Positions 52,318 to 60,144 of a stretch of 64,000 nucleotides of DNA are shown here, piece by piece (the stretch's first letter is position 1; the number at the start of each line of letters is the position of its first letter). This DNA comes from Arcobacteraceae bacterium (GTDB taxonomy: Bacteria; Campylobacterota; Campylobacteria; Campylobacterales; Arcobacteraceae), in NCBI GenBank assembly GCA_021107755.1, contig JAIOSF010000003.1, forward strand, positions 1 through 64,000. Direction: 5' to 3'. The notes beneath the pieces were generated by a model. That model was not told the origin of the DNA. It was given only the letters and a program-made list of their open reading frames with translations, and made no database searches. Made by a program: the position numbers and the translations under genes.

Positions 52318-55300
52318 ATGATAAAATCACTAATAAAATTTGGTTTAGAAAAACCAATCCTTAACTATATGCTTCTATTTTTTATATTTGTACTCTCAGT
52401 ATTTTCATACCTTAAAATACCAAAAGAGATATTTCCTCCATCTAATCTTGATGCTATCTCTATTACTGGAAACTATGCGGGTGCTAGTAGTGATATACTT
52501 GATTTAATGGCCGTATCAAAAATAGAAGATGAACTAGCAAATTTAAGTGAAGCAGATACTATAACAACTGTTGTAAAAACAGGATATTTTAGTATTCGAA
52601 TCGATTTAAAAGAGGGAAACAATCTTTCAAAACTTTTAGATGATGTAAAAGATATTGTTACAAAAACTCGTTCAGATTTACCAAGTGATATGGATGAACC
52701 TATAGTAAAAGAGGTGAGTTTTTCATTTCCACTTATTACTATTGCTGTATTTGGTGATAAATCAAATGAGGAGTTACTCCAAATTTCAGATGATATTAAA
52801 TCAAAGATAAACACTCTGGGAGATTTAAGTGATATAACTATCTGGGGAGATAGTGACAAAGAGTTACTTATAACTTTTGATGAAACAAAAATTGATGCCT
52901 TTGGATTAAATAAAAATGCCGTTATAAGTGCCATTGCAGCTACTAGTTCTATTTTCCCTGCAGGGATTATAAAAGATAAAGGGACACACTACTATCTTAG
53001 TAGTCAAAATGGGGAAAAAGATATTCAAAAACTTTTAAATATGATTATCAAAATTGGTGATACCTCTATTTACCTCAAAGATATTGCAACCGTAGAATAT
53101 AAACTAGCTGATGTAAATACAATTTCACATTTTAATGGTCAAAAAAATATCTCAATAGGTGTCAATAAAAGTGAAACTGGAGATAGTATCGCCCTAGTTA
53201 AACAAATAAAACAGATACTAAAAGAGGAACAAAAAAACTATAGTGATATAAAATTTGACACCTATACAGACACCTCAGTATGGATAAAAAATAGACTTAA
53301 TACTGTGGTGTCAAATATACTTTTTGGACTTATACTGCTTACTATTGCCCTATTTTTCTTTATCAATGCAAGGATAGCTTTTGTAGTTGCTGTTGGTATT
53401 CCTACAAGTTTTATGATAGGACTTATTGGTGCTGAACAACTTGGATATAGTCTTAATATGCTCTCACTTCTAGGAGCACTTCTTGCCCTTGGTATGCTTG
53501 TAGATGAAGCTATTGTTGTGGGGGAAAATATCTATAGACATCTCGAGATGGGAAAAGATAAGATGAGTGCAGCTCTAGATGGTGCAGTGGAGATGTATCC
53601 TGCTGTTTTAACTGCAACTGCTACTACTGTATTTGCATTTTTACCAATATTGCTTATGAGTGGAGAAACGGGGGTATTTATGAGAATACTTCCTATTATG
53701 ATAACTATCTTACTTCTAAGTTCATTAGTGGAAGCATTTTTCTTTCTACCACTTCATGCAAAACATATACTTCAAGTAAATCATAGTGAAAAAAAATCAG
53801 AAACTATCTGGGAGTGGAACAAAAGCCTTTATAAAACTATCTTAGATTTTGTGTTAAAGTGGAAATATCTTTCCCCTATAATTCTTACAGTTTTTATCAT
53901 CATAGCAACAATATTTTTTGCAAAAATTTTAAAGTTTGAGTTTATGCCAGAGTTTGATACAACACAAGTTTATATTAATGGGTCCGTTGGTGTAGGACAT
54001 GATATCAAAGAGACTGAGCAAAAGATTTATGAACTAGAAAAAAAGATACTTGAAAACTTTGAGTTAGGAAATGAAATAGATAGTATCAGTTCCGTTATAG
54101 GGATGAAACTAGATGGAAAACAACTCCCTCAAAATGAAGAATTCTACTTTCAAATCTTTGTAAACCTTCAAGAAAGAGCTGCTTCAAATGTATTTGATAA
54201 ATATATCAATCCATATTTAAGTCCAAAATATGATGATACAGATATGACCCGAGTTGAAGCTGCAAAAACTATCTCAAACAATATCTCAAAACTTATAAAC
54301 AGTGGTGATATAAAAAAAGAGTTTGAGGATATAAATGTTTATGTCCCAGGTGCAGGAATAGTAAAATACGATATAGAGATAAGTCTCAGTGGAGATAATG
54401 ACAAAGAGTTAAGTGAGGCTATAAAAACTATCAAAACAGAACTAGAAAATATAAAAGGGGTAAAAAATATCGCCGATGATATACTTCTTGGAAACCTAGA
54501 TTTGAAATTTTCTATCAATCCTTATGGGCAATCTTTAGGGTTTAGTGAAACTGATGTTGTGAACTTACTTAAACCTTATTATTTCAAAGGGAGTTTCTCT
54601 AAAATGTATGATGATACGGGTGTGGTTGATATAGTGTTTCAAAGTGTCAACAAAGATATCAAAAAATCTCTTGATAATTTTGAAATTATAATACCAAATA
54701 GTGACAAAAAAGTCCTTCTAAATGATATAGTAGATTTCAAAACAAAATCAAGCCTTAGTCAAATCTTCAAAGAGGATGGAGTAGCGATACAAACTATCAC
54801 AGCTTCGCTAGATGGAATAACTAGTACTGAACTCTACACACAACTAGATCCTATCTTAGATAGTTTAAAAGATAAAGTAACTATAGATATCAAAGGGGAA
54901 CAAAAAGAGAACCAAAAAGTACAGATGGAGATGGGACAAGCTTTTATCATAGCACTTATTCTTATCTTTATCTCTTTGGTATGGATGTTTGATAGTTTAG
55001 TAAAATCTCTCATCATCCTAAGTACCATCCCTCTTTCAGTTTTAGGTGTTCTGGTTGGACATTTTATCATGGGATTGAATCTTACAATGCCTGGACTTAT
55101 AGGTATGGTTGGACTTGCTGGGGTTATTGTAAATGATGGGATTATTATGATGGATTTTATCCAAAAATCTAAAAATATAGAAGAGATGAAACAATACGCA
55201 CTTTTAAGACTCCGCCCTATTCTTCTTACTTCGCTTACAACTATTTTAGGTCTTAGTACCTTGATGTTTTTTGCTTCTGGTCAATCTTTGATATTACAAC

Positions 55301-55401
55301 CAATGGCTGTAGCTTTAGGATTTGGGATACTTTGGGCTACGATTTTGAATTTGTATTATGTTCCTATGTTGTATAGGATTATTTATTTGAGGAAAGAGTA
55401 A
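52318..55401 (+). CDS. RND-family efflux transporter, inner membrane subunit
   Basis: 1027 residues with AcrB-like topology: first helix at ~15-35, large periplasmic loops, LGALLALGMLVDEAIVVGENIYRH (proton-relay Asp region), TATATTVFAFLPILLMSG, and the second-half GLIGMVGLAGVIVNDGIIMM. It should export substrates by proton antiport. No membrane-fusion or outer-membrane channel gene lies beside it, which is unusual for RND pumps. Its 3' end occurs again, decayed, at 59345-59455. Substrate unknown. Confidence 0.9.
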   Translation: MIKSLIKFGLEKPILNYMLLFFIFVLSVFSYLKIPKEIFPPSNLDAISITGNYAGASSDILDLMAVSKIEDELANLSEADTITTVVKTGYFSIRIDLKEGNNLSKLLDDVKDIVTKTRSDLPSDMDEPIVKEVSFSFPLITIAVFGDKSNEELLQISDDIKSKINTLGDLSDITIWGDSDKELLITFDETKIDAFGLNKNAVISAIAATSSIFPAGIIKDKGTHYYLSSQNGEKDIQKLLNMIIKIGDTSIYLKDIATVEYKLADVNTISHFNGQKNISIGVNKSETGDSIALVKQIKQILKEEQKNYSDIKFDTYTDTSVWIKNRLNTVVSNILFGLILLTIALFFFINARIAFVVAVGIPTSFMIGLIGAEQLGYSLNMLSLLGALLALGMLVDEAIVVGENIYRHLEMGKDKMSAALDGAVEMYPAVLTATATTVFAFLPILLMSGETGVFMRILPIMITILLLSSLVEAFFFLPLHAKHILQVNHSEKKSETIWEWNKSLYKTILDFVLKWKYLSPIILTVFIIIATIFFAKILKFEFMPEFDTTQVYINGSVGVGHDIKETEQKIYELEKKILENFELGNEIDSISSVIGMKLDGKQLPQNEEFYFQIFVNLQERAASNVFDKYINPYLSPKYDDTDMTRVEAAKTISNNISKLINSGDIKKEFEDINVYVPGAGIVKYDIEISLSGDNDKELSEAIKTIKTELENIKGVKNIADDILLGNLDLKFSINPYGQSLGFSETDVVNLLKPYYFKGSFSKMYDDTGVVDIVFQSVNKDIKKSLDNFEIIIPNSDKKVLLNDIVDFKTKSSLSQIFKEDGVAIQTITASLDGITSTELYTQLDPILDSLKDKVTIDIKGEQKENQKVQMEMGQAFIIALILIFISLVWMFDSLVKSLIILSTIPLSVLGVLVGHFIMGLNLTMPGLIGMVGLAGVIVNDGIIMMDFIQKSKNIEEMKQYALLRLRPILLTSLTTILGLSTLMFFASGQSLILQPMAVALGFGILWATILNLYYVPMLYRIIYLRKE
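55285..55400 (+). repeat. Direct repeat copy A: 3' end of the RND gene
   Basis: These 116 bp match 59345-59454 (110 bp) with one 6-bp deletion and roughly ten substitutions near the 5' side; the last 60 bases are nearly identical. The two copies flank the peroxidase/cytochrome/DsrE/Crp module. Confidence 0.85.
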
Positions 55402-55471: not shown

Positions 55472-56740
55472 TTATTTATTTGATATATCTATAAGTTGCC
55501 CATTAACTGCTTTTAAAAACTTTACAATTTTTTCAATCTCCTCATCAGTTAAATTTTTTCTCGCCTGATGTGTCCCCATCATTTTTATAGCATCTTCTAT
55601 TTTTTCAACACTTCCATTATGAAAGTATGGAGCAGTGCTTACTACATTTCGTAAAAGTGGTACTCTAAAATGTTTTAAATGTTTTTCATCTCCTAAAAAG
55701 CCACCTTTATTTTCAAATGGAAATGAAATAGTTGATAATAAGTTTCTATTAATCCTATTTGTTTTTTTATCATGACAATGTATACATCCTTTTGTAGTCA
55801 TCACTTTATATACTTCATCTTTGTTATATAAGTTAAAAAAACCTTTTTCTAGCAGTTCTAAGTTTTTTGTCCCAAAAGCTGATAATAAATAATTATATCT
55901 TTTTTTATCATCATTAAATTTTATTTGAAAATATTTTCTATCTTCATTTAGTGTTTCTAAAAATTGTTCATATAGCTTTTTTAATTCATTAATTGATTGT
56001 ATATCACTCATACTCCAGATAGGATGATAAGAAAGTGGAAATTTTCTAAGTTTTTGACCACCTAGTGCAATACCATTGTGACAGCCTACACAACTTTTTG
56101 TAATAAATAATTTTAAACCTTCTTTTTCTTCTTTATTTAATGCAGTTAAATCACCTTCAAGAAACTCATCATATCGACTTCTTGTCACTAAAGTTTTTTC
56201 ATACTCGCCTATTGCTTCAGTGATTTTATCAAATGTAATTTTATTACTCTCAAAAGCATTTAAAAACATTTGATTATATTCACTATTTTGTTTTACCCTT
56301 TCCTCTGCAAGTTTTGGAGTAATAGACATCTCAAAAGTTGCTTGAAGAGGACCTTGAGCTTGATCTTTTAATGTATGGCTTGAACCATTCCAAAATAGAT
56401 GCTTTGAAAATGCTGTATTTAACACAGTTGGTGAATTTAGATGAGATGGATTTTTTTGATTTTTATGACCAATTGCTGTAGGTATCCCATCTGCTCCACC
56501 TTTTTTGAAGTCATGACAAGATGCACAGCTAATATCTTTATTTAATGATAAATTTTTATCAAAAAAAAGTTTTTTACCTAGTGTAATTTTTTCTTTAGAA
56601 GTTATTTTCACAATATTCTTTAAAGTTATTAAATTATTCGGTGCTGGTTTTAATCCATAACTATAAGCTTGAATCAATAACTTCTCATCCTCATTGGCGT
56701 ATAGATTTACTACCATTAATATTATTAGAAAATATTTCAT
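55472..56740 (-). CDS. Cytochrome c peroxidase/MauG-like protein with three haem motifs
   Basis: 422 residues with a 15-residue signal peptide (MKYFLIILMVVNLYA). Haem-binding CxxCH motifs are at 72-76 (CASCH), 217-221 (CVGCH) and 319-323 (CIHCH). The first and second fit the normal di-haem peroxidase; RVPLLRNVVSTAPYFHNGSV follows at ~365-385. The third lies in an insertion of about 100 residues between the second haem site and that motif, which is not standard and not at the N-terminus as in YhjA. It probably reduces peroxide or oxidises a partner in the periplasm. It is divergent from the dihaem cytochrome and shares its palindromic operator. Confidence 0.88.
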   Translation of the reverse strand: MKYFLIILMVVNLYANEDEKLLIQAYSYGLKPAPNNLITLKNIVKITSKEKITLGKKLFFDKNLSLNKDISCASCHDFKKGGADGIPTAIGHKNQKNPSHLNSPTVLNTAFSKHLFWNGSSHTLKDQAQGPLQATFEMSITPKLAEERVKQNSEYNQMFLNAFESNKITFDKITEAIGEYEKTLVTRSRYDEFLEGDLTALNKEEKEGLKLFITKSCVGCHNGIALGGQKLRKFPLSYHPIWSMSDIQSINELKKLYEQFLETLNEDRKYFQIKFNDDKKRYNYLLSAFGTKNLELLEKGFFNLYNKDEVYKVMTTKGCIHCHDKKTNRINRNLLSTISFPFENKGGFLGDEKHLKHFRVPLLRNVVSTAPYFHNGSVEKIEDAIKMMGTHQARKNLTDEEIEKIVKFLKAVNGQLIDISNK

Positions 56741-56766
56741 ATTTTTCTCCTCATTTTTATACAGAA

Positions 56767-56836
56767 ATCATAGTAAATATTGATTTTTTCTTATGTGATT
56801 TGGCTCACATAAATAATTTATAGATACAAGTATATT
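56767..56836. promoter_or_regulatory. Divergent Crp/Fnr-type promoter: TTATGTGA-N6-TCACATAA with a -10 on each side
   Basis: A perfect eight-base-arm palindrome at 56791-56812 contains TGTGA-N6-TCACA (56794-56809, centre 56801.5). On the plus side TATATT (56831-56836) begins 21 bp after TCACA; on the minus side TATGAT (56772-56767) begins 21 bp after its half-site. The predicted starts are near 56843 and 56760, placing the centre at -41.5 for both, the class II activator position. The leaders would be about 28 and 19-20 bases, each including a GGAG ribosome site. Regulator binding is inferred. Confidence 0.72.
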
Positions 56837-56870
56837 TCTATATAGATTTTATAATAGAGGAGAAAATAGT

Positions 56871-57482
56871 ATGAAGTATATAATAATAGGAGTCATACTT
56901 ATTATGACATTGTTGGTATCTAAGCTTTTTGTAGCTCTTGACTTGCTACATTTTAATAAATACACTACTAGACTTGATTCAAATAAACAAAATAGTAAGT
57001 TAAATCAATTAGAGAAAACTGGAAAATCCTTATATTTAGTTTATTGTTCCTCTTGCCATGGTTATGATGGAAAAGGAAATAAAGAAAAAGCACAAGACCA
57101 TACACATAGAATGTCTAAAAAATCGATAATAGATGTTATCAATAATGGTGCAAATAATTTTAAATCTTTATATCCCTCAGGTATGCCATCAGGATTGATA
57201 AATCAAGATGAAGCAGAGAAAGTAGCTACATTTATGGTAAATGGTTTTAAAGGTCCTGCACCAAAATCTTGGATAATATGTGCATCTTGTCATGATAATA
57301 CGGGTGAAGGGATTCCTCTTATAGCTCCCAATATTAAAACATATAGTGATGAATTAGTTGAAACAGTTTTAAAAAATGGGAAACAAGGAGTTATTGGAGT
57401 TATGCCAAGTGATTTTAAACATAGACTTAATAAAAATCAAATGAAAGCAATTGCTGCCTATATTAGAAGTTTAGGAAAATAA
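56871..57482 (+). CDS. Membrane-anchored dihaem cytochrome c
   Basis: 203 residues. A hydrophobic N-terminal anchor (about 3-25) leads to two class I-type cytochrome domains: CSSCH at 59-63 with GYDGKG and Met105 in SGMPSG, and CASCH at 137-141 with Met in GVMPSDF as likely sixth ligand. The pattern resembles the dihaem end of cbb3-type CcoP and other electron carriers. It probably passes electrons in the periplasm, perhaps to or from the peroxidase gene divergent from it. The ATG follows GAGGAG. Confidence 0.88.
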   Translation: MKYIIIGVILIMTLLVSKLFVALDLLHFNKYTTRLDSNKQNSKLNQLEKTGKSLYLVYCSSCHGYDGKGNKEKAQDHTHRMSKKSIIDVINNGANNFKSLYPSGMPSGLINQDEAEKVATFMVNGFKGPAPKSWIICASCHDNTGEGIPLIAPNIKTYSDELVETVLKNGKQGVIGVMPSDFKHRLNKNQMKAIAAYIRSLGK

Positions 57483-57491
57483 ATTTTGCTT

Positions 57492-57534
57492 TGTGATTCA
57501 CATCACAGAACTAAACCCTAAATTCTTTTATAAT
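57492..57534 (+). promoter_or_regulatory. Crp/Fnr-type promoter of the DsrE-like gene
   Basis: TGTGA-TTCACA-TCACA at 57492-57507 (centre 57499.5) is followed, after exactly 21 bp, by TATAAT at 57529-57534. Predicted start about 57541, giving -41.5 spacing as in the divergent promoter 700 bp away, and a 25-base leader with AAAGGAG before ATG 57566. Confidence 0.75.
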
Positions 57535-57565
57535 TCGTATGCATTCAAAACAAAAGGAGTAAAAT

Positions 57566-58000
57566 ATGCAAATCAGTAAAAAAATCTTAGGTAGTTGGGT
57601 CTTCCTATTGTTATTAACAATATCAGCACAAGCTTCAGAAGGATATAAAAATCTTTTTGTAACAATTACTACAGACAATTTAAAACAATCAGGTATGGGT
57701 GTAGCAATTGCTAGTGCATTTCAAAATGCAGGGGTAAATACTACAGTGCTTGTTGGTGCAAATGCATCAAAATTAGTGTTGAAAAAAGGAAAGCAAGAAT
57801 TATTTGGACCAACTGGTGTTTCCATAAGAGATATGTTAGTTGGATTAACAAAAAAAGGTGGTACAGTTATGCTTTGTGGAATGTGTGCAAAGTTTGGTGA
57901 AATAACAAAAAATGATGTAGCATATGGTGTAAAAATAGTAACACCAAATGATGTAGCAAGAGCACTTTTAGCACCCTCGACTCAAACATTATCATTTTAG
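57566..58000 (+). CDS. Exported DsrE/DsrF-like protein
   Basis: 144 residues with a signal peptide (ending SAQAS, cut about residue 23). The mature part has the DsrE-like alternating fold: NLFVTITTDN, GMGVAIASAFQNAGVNTTVLVG, and MLCGMCAKFG with a C-x2-C pair. DsrE-family proteins bind or transfer sulfur or nitric-oxide-type ligands through a cysteine. Periplasmic location and the cytochrome neighbours suggest a role in periplasmic sulfur or redox chemistry, but the reaction is not known. It has its own Crp-type promoter and precedes the regulator gene. Confidence 0.82.
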   Translation: MQISKKILGSWVFLLLLTISAQASEGYKNLFVTITTDNLKQSGMGVAIASAFQNAGVNTTVLVGANASKLVLKKGKQELFGPTGVSIRDMLVGLTKKGGTVMLCGMCAKFGEITKNDVAYGVKIVTPNDVARALLAPSTQTLSF

Positions 58001-58008
58001 TAAATTAA

Positions 58009-58038
58009 ATATCATATGGGTAAAATCCCATATGATAT
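58009..58038. other. Perfect 12-bp inverted repeat between the DsrE-like gene and the Crp/Fnr gene
   Basis: ATATCATATGGG (58009-58020) and CCCATATGATAT (58027-58038) enclose TAAAAT. No T-run follows, so it is not a typical terminator. As RNA it could form a strong hairpin just before the regulator's ribosome site (AAAGGA at 58043-58048), perhaps processing or stabilising the transcript, or as DNA it could be an operator over TATAAT (58036-58041). Confidence 0.6.
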
Positions 58039-58053
58039 AATTAAAGGAAAAAT

Positions 58054-58671
58054 ATGGAACTTCTAGACTATCATTGTTTTAACAACTTATCAAAAACAGA
58101 AAAAGAGAAAGTTTTAAATAGTGCAAAAAAAGTTATGTTACCATCTGAACAAATACTTTATTATACAGGTGATATATGTGAAGATGTACTATTTTTAAAA
58201 AGTGGAACAGTAAAAGTATATATCCAACCAAAAGAGATAGGGAGTGAAGAGATGACTCTTTATGAACTACAAAAAGGGAGTCAATGTGTAGTAAATCTTT
58301 TTAGTACAATATCATCATCTCCAACATTAGCAACTGCACAAACAATCACTCCAATAGAGGGGTGGATAGTATCAAAAGATACAATAACATGGCTAATTCA
58401 TAACTCTGATTCATTTAGAGAATTTAAAATGGATATAGTGGGCAAAAGAATGAGTTCACTGATAAATATTTTATCGGAAGTAAAGTTCTCTAATATTGAG
58501 CAACAATTGTTAAACTGGCTTTATGTACAAGGTCTAAATAGTATTAAAATAACCCATGATAAAATTGCTTCTACAATAGGAGTTACAAGAGAAACTATTA
58601 GTAGAAACTTAAAAAAACTGGAGCAAAAAGGTCATATAAAACTTAGTCGAGGGATGATTTCAATTAATTAA
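58054..58671 (+). CDS. Crp/Fnr-family transcriptional regulator
   Basis: 205 residues: an N-terminal cyclic-nucleotide-binding-like beta barrel (about 15-110) without an Fnr-type Cys cluster, a dimer helix (about 125-150), and a winged helix with KITHDKIASTIGVTRETISR. The recognition-helix residues R-E-x-x-x-R match E. coli CRP Arg180, Glu181 and Arg185, which read TGTGA. That agrees with the two TGTGA-N6-TCACA sites upstream of adjacent genes. The signal is unknown; cyclic-AMP-binding residues are not evident. It converges with the transglutaminase-like gene, overlapping by 4 bp. Confidence 0.88.
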   Translation: MELLDYHCFNNLSKTEKEKVLNSAKKVMLPSEQILYYTGDICEDVLFLKSGTVKVYIQPKEIGSEEMTLYELQKGSQCVVNLFSTISSSPTLATAQTITPIEGWIVSKDTITWLIHNSDSFREFKMDIVGKRMSSLINILSEVKFSNIEQQLLNWLYVQGLNSIKITHDKIASTIGVTRETISRNLKKLEQKGHIKLSRGMISIN

Positions 58672-59246
58672 GTAATTGTATTGATATCAGGAAAATTATT
58701 TACCATTTCATCATAAGTTGTATATTTCTCTAATGCTTTAATTACTTCATTGAGTGGTTTAGAGTAAATATCTGGTAAGTCAAATTCATCTTCTTCAATG
58801 TCAAATGCCAACTTTTCAAAGGGTGGATTAAACTGTGCATCTACTCCCTCTTTATTTCCTCGTGCATCAACTTTATACCAACCATAATCTTTTAAATAAA
58901 TAGCATTTAATCCATGTAAACAATATTTATCTTTTTTATATTCAGAACACTTAAGTCTTTGGTAACAAAATCCTGTAGGAATATTGTTTGCTCTTAGTAA
59001 AGCAGCTAAAAGATGTATCTTAGAATAGCACCATCCCATTTTATATTTTAAAACATCACTTGCTTTAATTGTTGAAATATCACTTTTAGAATCTCCAGTA
59101 TGATTAATATTATCTCTTACATACAGAAAGCATTTTTTTGCAATATCTGTATCTGATTTACAATTCTGAGATAAATTTTTTGCCAGTTTTTGTATATTAT
59201 CATTTGAATAGTTTATAATACTTGTCTCTTCTAAATATTCTTTCAT
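58668..59246 (-). CDS. Transglutaminase-like cysteine protease superfamily protein
   Basis: 192 residues, no signal peptide. The catalytic triad pattern is GWCYSKIHLLAALLR (Cys), CLHGLNAIYL (His) and KVDARGN (Asp), as in the transglutaminase-like (TGc) fold. Such cytoplasmic proteins are putative proteases or peptide-modifying enzymes. It converges on the Crp/Fnr gene, with a 4-bp overlap. Role in the module unknown. Confidence 0.82.
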   Translation of the reverse strand: MKEYLEETSIINYSNDNIQKLAKNLSQNCKSDTDIAKKCFLYVRDNINHTGDSKSDISTIKASDVLKYKMGWCYSKIHLLAALLRANNIPTGFCYQRLKCSEYKKDKYCLHGLNAIYLKDYGWYKVDARGNKEGVDAQFNPPFEKLAFDIEEDEFDLPDIYSKPLNEVIKALEKYTTYDEMVNNFPDINTIT

Positions 59247-59344: not shown

Positions 59345-59455
59345 TCTTTGATATTGCAACCTATGGCTTTAGAATCTGGAATACTTTGGGCTACTATTTT
59401 GAATTTGTATTATGTTCCTATGTTGTATAGGATTATTTATTTGAGGAAAGAGTAG
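59345..59455 (+). pseudogene. Decayed remnant of an RND transporter 3' end (direct repeat copy B)
   Basis: The reading frame SLILQPMALESGILWATILN continues to a TAG at 59453-59455. It repeats the last ~38 codons of the RND gene (55285-55401), missing two codons and with a few changes, but with an almost identical end. No gene body precedes it. The rest of the 370-bp gap (59247-59615) holds no gene: a 14-codon frame at 59481-59525 and AT-rich DNA only. The pair of copies flanks a 4-kb module. Confidence 0.85.
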
Positions 59456-59615: not shown

Positions 59616-59897
59616 TTATAAAGGCTTATTCTGATTAAATATATTTAAAATGATTATCATATTACGATTTACATCAATCTCATAATTTATAGTATATTTT
59701 TTAAATATCATATCTCTTATGTTTTCATCATTAAAATAGACTGATTTTCTATGTTTGTATGGAATGTTTGAAATATTTTTTATTTGCTCAAACAACTCTT
59801 TTTTGAACTTTTTTGAAGCAGATAATTTATCTTTTGCAATATACTCAAAAATTAAATTGAAGTGTTTTTCAAATTTAATATCAAGTTTAATTTGCAT
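59616..59897 (-). CDS. ParE/RelE-superfamily toxin
   Basis: 93 residues with the short alpha2-beta4 plan of RelE/ParE toxins: a helix pair (KFEKHFNLIFEYIAKDKLSA, then SKKFKKELFEQIKNI), PYKHRKSVYF, and IRDMIFKKYTINYEI. The Arg/Lys-rich strands are as in ParE, so gyrase or ribosome attack cannot be told apart. The start overlaps the antitoxin stop by 11 bp, the order antitoxin-toxin being standard. Confidence 0.8.
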   Translation of the reverse strand: MQIKLDIKFEKHFNLIFEYIAKDKLSASKKFKKELFEQIKNISNIPYKHRKSVYFNDENIRDMIFKKYTINYEIDVNRNMIIILNIFNQNKPL

Positions 59898-60144
59898 ATT
59901 GTTTTTCTAGCTCTTTTTCAAATGCATCTACATTATTCTCAAAATCTTCAAATGATATTAACTCACTTTTCCCACTTTTTATATCATCTCGTATCTGATG
60001 AAGTTCTTTTTGTCTTTCATAAAAGTATGGGTCTAATTCTAAGTTTTTATCTTTTGTGATTTGTATACTAGCGCTATGCTCATTTACATAGTTCATAAAA
60101 CTCTGTATATAATTATCTTGAACTTCTAATGTTACAGTTTGCAT
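59887..60144 (-). CDS. Antitoxin of the ParE/RelE-type pair
   Basis: 85 residues: a short beta-strand start (MQTVTLEVQDNYIQSFMNYV), as in RelB/ParD-like or other antitoxins, and an acidic C-terminal helix (FENNVDAFEKELEKQY) suited to wrapping a toxin. AGGAGGA lies just before the ATG. It directly overlaps the toxin gene. Subfamily not assigned. Confidence 0.78.
   Translation of the reverse strand: MQTVTLEVQDNYIQSFMNYVNEHSASIQITKDKNLELDPYFYERQKELHQIRDDIKSGKSELISFEDFENNVDAFEKELEKQYAN

Follow-up and report, generated by a model that had tools for sequence, protein, structure and literature searches.

Gene Organization and Operators of the Module

The window, i.e., the whole 64,000-nucleotide stretch of Arcobacteraceae DNA that was analyzed, contains a compact module in which genes for redox proteins lie next to a regulator gene. 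A gene for a triheme bacterial cytochrome c peroxidase (CcP) is located on the minus strand (55472–56740; Pfam CCP_MauG, with solved CcP relatives of which 1iqc is the best). On the plus strand are the divergent gene for a diheme c-type cytochrome, which has an N-terminal membrane anchor and the motifs CSSCH and CASCH (56871–57482; Pfam and alignment), and the genes for a DsrE/YchN-fold protein (57566–58000; Pfam DsrE, alignment, AlphaFold and Foldseek) and a Crp/Fnr-type regulator, a presumed activator and autoregulator (58054–58671; Pfam, alignments, Foldseek matches to CRP structures and a tree).

Two operators, neither assigned to a strand, are located between these genes. Operator 1, TGTGATTTGGCTCACA (56794–56809), is common to the divergent peroxidase and cytochrome genes, and operator 2, TGTGATTCACATCACA (57492–57507), serves dsrE and the regulator gene. 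Both are exact TGTGA-N6-TCACA palindromes, and lie where the preliminary description had placed them. The -10 hexamers that it had named are also present: TATGAT for the peroxidase gene (56767–56772, minus strand) and TATATT for the cytochrome gene (56831–56836, plus strand), both paired with operator 1, and TATAAT (57529–57534, plus strand), paired with operator 2. At three of three promoters the gap between the TCACA half-site and the -10 hexamer is exactly 21 bp. A site with the CRP core and a 21-bp gap to the -10 hexamer is centered at -41.5. The arrangement is thus that of class II promoters, i.e., a site near -41.5 with a good -10 hexamer, the start sites themselves being predicted. When two mismatches are allowed, the window holds no excess of sites (34 versus 36 expected), indicating that it is the exact palindromes and their geometry that carry the signal.

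The regulator consists of a cNMP-type sensor domain followed by a Crp-type helix-turn-helix, which places it in the Crp/Fnr superfamily. Its recognition helix is R179-E180-T-I-S-R184, the RETISR helix that had been read from the translation. An RExxxR helix and TGTGA-N6-TCACA operators are therefore both present in the sequence, as expected of CRP-type specificity, and binding of the regulator to these sites is predicted. Foldseek matches of the regulator are CRP structures, with DNR among them; the predicted model (pLDDT 80, pTM 0.59) supports the fold only.

Conservation of Operator, Spacing and Recognition Helix

The 2.62-Mb genome contains four exact TGTGA-N6-TCACA palindromes, and the two outside the module are both within coding genes. 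The extended pattern TGTGAN6TCACAN21TANNNT has exactly three matches in the 2.62 Mb, namely the three promoters of the module, and its reversed control has none; the genome scan for the site at the same spacing, which had been proposed as a check, thus finds the claimed promoters and nothing else. Across the genome, one-mismatch sites are no more frequent than matches to the control (67 versus 90). A wider regulon in this genome was rejected by this criterion, as both one-mismatch sites and fixed-spacing matches with two mismatches are at the control level.

A search of 299 genomes of the order, using a threshold of at least 43% identity to the regulator, yielded nine genomes with an ortholog in addition to the source genome. 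G001 was left out, as its match of 43% is partial and belongs to a protein with an RVVVSR helix that falls in a sister clade in the tree. The fixed-spacing pattern is present in each of the 10 ortholog genomes, as opposed to 17 of the 389 others (Fisher 3.4e-13). The latter matches are taken as background because the reversed control pattern gives 26 matches across 399 genomes; among the loci read, most sites in the non-ortholog genomes are inside genes. In two genomes without an ortholog, fixed-spacing TGTGA sites were seen beside different Crp-like genes (L163 in G358 and L171 in G095).

At the ortholog loci, exact sites lie ahead of dsrE, peroxidase or cytochrome genes, and operators in relatives are located between the same gene pairs as in the window. 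The picture is the same in named relatives from Arcobacter, Sulfurovum, Sulfurimonas and Sulfuricurvum. One genome (G168) encodes two such regulators, the second of which (L052/L071) has a one-mismatch site only.

The spacing is conserved as well. With the window excluded, 28 promoter sides remain in other genomes, and their mean match to the -10 hexamer is 4.32 of 6 at a gap of 21 bp versus 2.14 (sd 0.32) at other gaps; this is a single peak, and the value does not exceed 3.18 in 2000 shuffles. Exceptions are L076 and part of L069, in which a gap of 22 bp or another position gives the best -10 hexamer; a few hexamers also score poorly. The site at 6740 of L077, ahead of a gene for 351 amino acids, has no good -10 hexamer and was omitted.

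Presence of the operator follows the type of recognition helix. All 10 regulators with an RExxSR helix have the operator, whereas none of 20 homologs with other helices does (Fisher 3e-8); for the latter, which carry RVVxSR, RPFxSK or REVISK, no operator was found within about 1.5 kb. In two of the ten (L014 and L015), the exact site is just beyond the short locus and is visible in the longer one. The RExxSR regulators form one clade (support 100/99) found in several families. The statistic hence counts genomes rather than independent events; a single joint change of helix and operator may lie behind the pattern, and the tests are not fully independent.

The protein–site pairing is sequence-based and the genome encodes six proteins with a cNMP-type domain, so the palindromes could in principle have arisen by chance or be the sites of an unrelated Crp protein, with the regulator acting elsewhere. 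This is very improbable given the conservation of the sites, their fixed spacing, their uniqueness in the genome and their tie to the helix type. In addition, four of the other five cNMP-type proteins do not share the RETISR helix: two Crp-like proteins on contig C6 have PETLSR helices, that on C21 has PTQLSR, and that on C16 is a short frame with no HTH helix. The fifth, also on C6, is 620 amino acids long. Taken together, the conserved site and spacing, the helix–operator match and the genome-wide uniqueness strongly support the self-contained Crp-type regulon of the preliminary description, and the module very probably is a conserved regulon of class II geometry.

Periplasmic Proteins and Sulfur Context

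The peroxidase has 422 residues and three CXXCH motifs (72–76, 217–221 and 319–323), which are all invariant in seven orthologs. It aligns with solved CcPs over residues 50–235 and 347–418, and the third motif is located in an insertion of about 110 amino acids inside the CcP domain. The annotations given earlier for the genes of the module stand, with the refinement that this enzyme carries three CXXCH motifs and is probably CcP-like rather than MauG-like. MauG is marked by a tyrosine as the distal ligand of the second haem; this identity seems less likely in view of the catalytic Gln/Glu and Met388 pattern. Met388 is invariant and is aligned to the AVxxM segment of 1iqc, a position which we take to be that of the CcP methionine ligand. 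The protein shares with bacterial CcPs the P-haem and E-haem CXXCH motifs, the catalytic Gln/Glu and the position of the presumed Met ligand, and differs from the classical diheme enzymes, which have exactly two c-haem motifs. It also differs from YhjA, in which the third haem is in the N-terminal domain (PMC10301912), because the third motif here is internal, lying after the E-haem motif and ahead of the presumed Met ligand. The diheme cytochrome is the probable electron donor to the peroxidase.

The DsrE-like protein begins with what looks by eye like a signal peptide and, in the ortholog alignment, has one invariant cysteine, Cys104. Its AlphaFold model (pLDDT 86) matches YchN (E 1e-7) and DsrE in Foldseek. 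Fold and conserved cysteine are those of the DsrE/YchN sulfur carriers. Unlike these, the protein has a signal peptide and would be periplasmic, is encoded alongside a Crp-type regulator, and lacks adjoining DsrF/DsrH partners. A perfect 12-bp hairpin (58009–58038, plus strand; -16.9 kcal/mol, z -4.9) occupies the gap between dsrE and the regulator gene, and is perhaps an attenuator or a stability element. Hairpins of unrelated sequence were seen in the same gap at L066, L047, L068, L069 and L070.

In G253, genes for a flavocytochrome c sulfide dehydrogenase flavoprotein and a small partner diverge from dsrE across its operator. This, together with the fold and the single invariant cysteine of DsrE, tentatively favors a sulfur role. 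In line with this, two SoxY genes and a homolog of sulfide dehydrogenase are encoded in the source genome, away from the module. SoxY matches are missing from three ortholog genomes, however, of which G004 and G266 also lack a convincing sulfide-dehydrogenase homolog, suggesting that energy-yielding sulfide oxidation is no fixed companion of the module; Sox and sulfide dehydrogenase were rejected as such companions on this ground. The earlier wording, which spoke of an inducible redox system in the periplasm and left its substrate open, describes the module fairly, and the comparison leans to reactive sulfur.

Candidate Signals, Proposed Mechanism and Origin

The cAMP-dependent CRP is marked by an Arg/Ser pair (R82/S83) that holds the phosphate and by Glu72 that holds the ribose. 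The regulator has no arginine in residues 1–121, and its alignment with CRP shows no Arg/Ser pair, indicating that the cAMP pocket is absent; cAMP sensing was rejected because the phosphate-binding arginine is missing. FNR is marked by four conserved cysteines that hold a 4Fe-4S cluster. In the regulator only Cys78 is invariant and the FNR cysteines are absent, and FNR-type Fe-S sensing was likewise rejected. A 2019 review states that FNR or similar redox regulators are not known in Campylobacterota and that Arcobacter butzleri has no FNR/CRP homolog (PMC6682613).

Nitric oxide or nitrosative stress, with NO bound via haem or a thiol as in Nss/Dnr proteins, would be one candidate signal for the same regulon. 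Nss proteins, which have a Dnr-type DNA-binding domain and are homologous to NssR, a regulator of nitrosative stress, are the known Crp/Fnr regulators of Campylobacterota (PMC11539149), and they resemble the regulator in belonging to the same phylum and superfamily and in being local activators of redox genes. DNR is also among the structural matches, and one sister-clade regulator comes after an NnrS gene. However, Nss/NssR proteins act on nitrogen-oxide genes through TTGA-N6-TCAA (PMC11539149), whereas the genes here are those for DsrE and the peroxidase and the site is TGTGA-N6-TCACA. NnrS is beside that single sister-clade member and beside none of the RExxSR regulators examined, and DsrE and the sulfide dehydrogenase indicate sulfur. 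Nitrosative stress is thus an unlikely signal. The sister clade, with its one NnrS link and repeated YgaP-like TM proteins, is also compatible with nitrosative stress; its regulators without TGTGA sites (L056, L062, L063, L064, L059 and L060) have genes for YgaP-like TM proteins, NnrS or DsrE as neighbors.

In another reading the regulon is again the same, with peroxide or thiol oxidation at Cys78, or low oxygen, as the signal, the peroxidase as the main output and DsrE as an accessory. Several genomes indeed have the peroxidase and its cytochrome on a common operator, Cys78 is invariant across 14 aligned homologs, and SCO4226-like and ABM-type proteins are among the neighbors behind sites. 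On the other hand, six RExxSR loci (L053, L054, L055, L072, L074 and L077) have dsrE, the regulator and the site with no peroxidase in the region read, which makes dsrE the steadier partner, and Cys78 occurs also in sister-clade members that lack the TGTGA operator. This reading is rather unlikely, if slightly less so than nitrosative stress. A role of the module in handling reactive sulfur is tentatively preferred, at somewhat less than even confidence; the signal, maybe sensed via Cys78, and the sulfur substrate are guesses.

Overall, a likely explanation is a portable regulon, with a class II activator that regulates its own gene and with a periplasmic redox chain. The regulator would be a dimeric protein of the Crp/Fnr family with no cAMP bound. 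We infer that, bound to TGTGA-N6-TCACA at -41.5, it would replace the -35 element and bring RNA polymerase to the three promoters, thereby switching on the peroxidase gene, the diheme cytochrome gene, and dsrE with the regulator gene. As the regulator gene is located downstream of its own operator, a positive feedback loop would result, and such autoregulation is quite likely. Electrons would pass from the membrane-anchored diheme cytochrome to the triheme peroxidase for the reduction of H2O2, and the periplasmic single-cysteine DsrE is probably a carrier or scavenger of persulfide sulfur. Of the roles considered, the most likely would be that the module responds to reactive sulfur and peroxide in the zone where sulfide and oxygen meet. 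The fuller picture of an undescribed clade of Crp-family activators that sense reactive sulfur by the invariant cysteine, and of a mobile module in which periplasmic DsrE and an internally triheme peroxidase handle sulfur and peroxide, is doubtful.

The regulator, the operator and the architecture are new in detail and known in kind. As in E. coli CRP at class II promoters, the module combines TGTGA-N6-TCACA, an RExxxR helix and, by spacing, a center at -41.5; unlike E. coli CRP, the regulator lacks the arginine that binds the cAMP phosphate, and it is a local rather than a global regulator, encoded within an operon predicted to be its own target. A literature search of open-licence papers on DsrE with Crp returned no paper describing the module. 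The module offers a concrete three-promoter regulon with predicted operators and start sites, and a regulator clade spread across several families. Once identified, its signal would indicate what bacteria living in sulfur-rich environments detect, and protect themselves from, in the periplasm.

The module was probably acquired horizontally, as suggested by a flanking repeat, by its absence from the congener G401 and by the different neighbors that it has in G244 and G253, two relatives from the Arcobacteraceae. The repeat is a direct 110-bp duplication: the left copy (55285–55400, plus strand; Pfam ACR_tran) is the 3' end of an intact RND transporter gene (52318–55401), the right copy (59345–59454, plus strand) is a remnant of this 3' end, and the copies are 94% identical over 94 nt. 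In G401, the genome of which is 61% complete, the transporter gene is followed after about 19 bp, inside one contig, by an ortholog of the 61418–61696 gene of the window, indicating that the module and the downstream stretch up to the 61418 gene are absent there. The flanking repeats also enclose a gene for a transglutaminase-like protein (58668–59246, minus strand; Pfam), and at L048, L049 and L076 relatives are encoded no more than 10 kb away from the regulator gene. Adjoining the repeat remnant are two small overlapping ORFs (59616–60144) that have, by eye, the look of a ParE-type toxin and its antitoxin.
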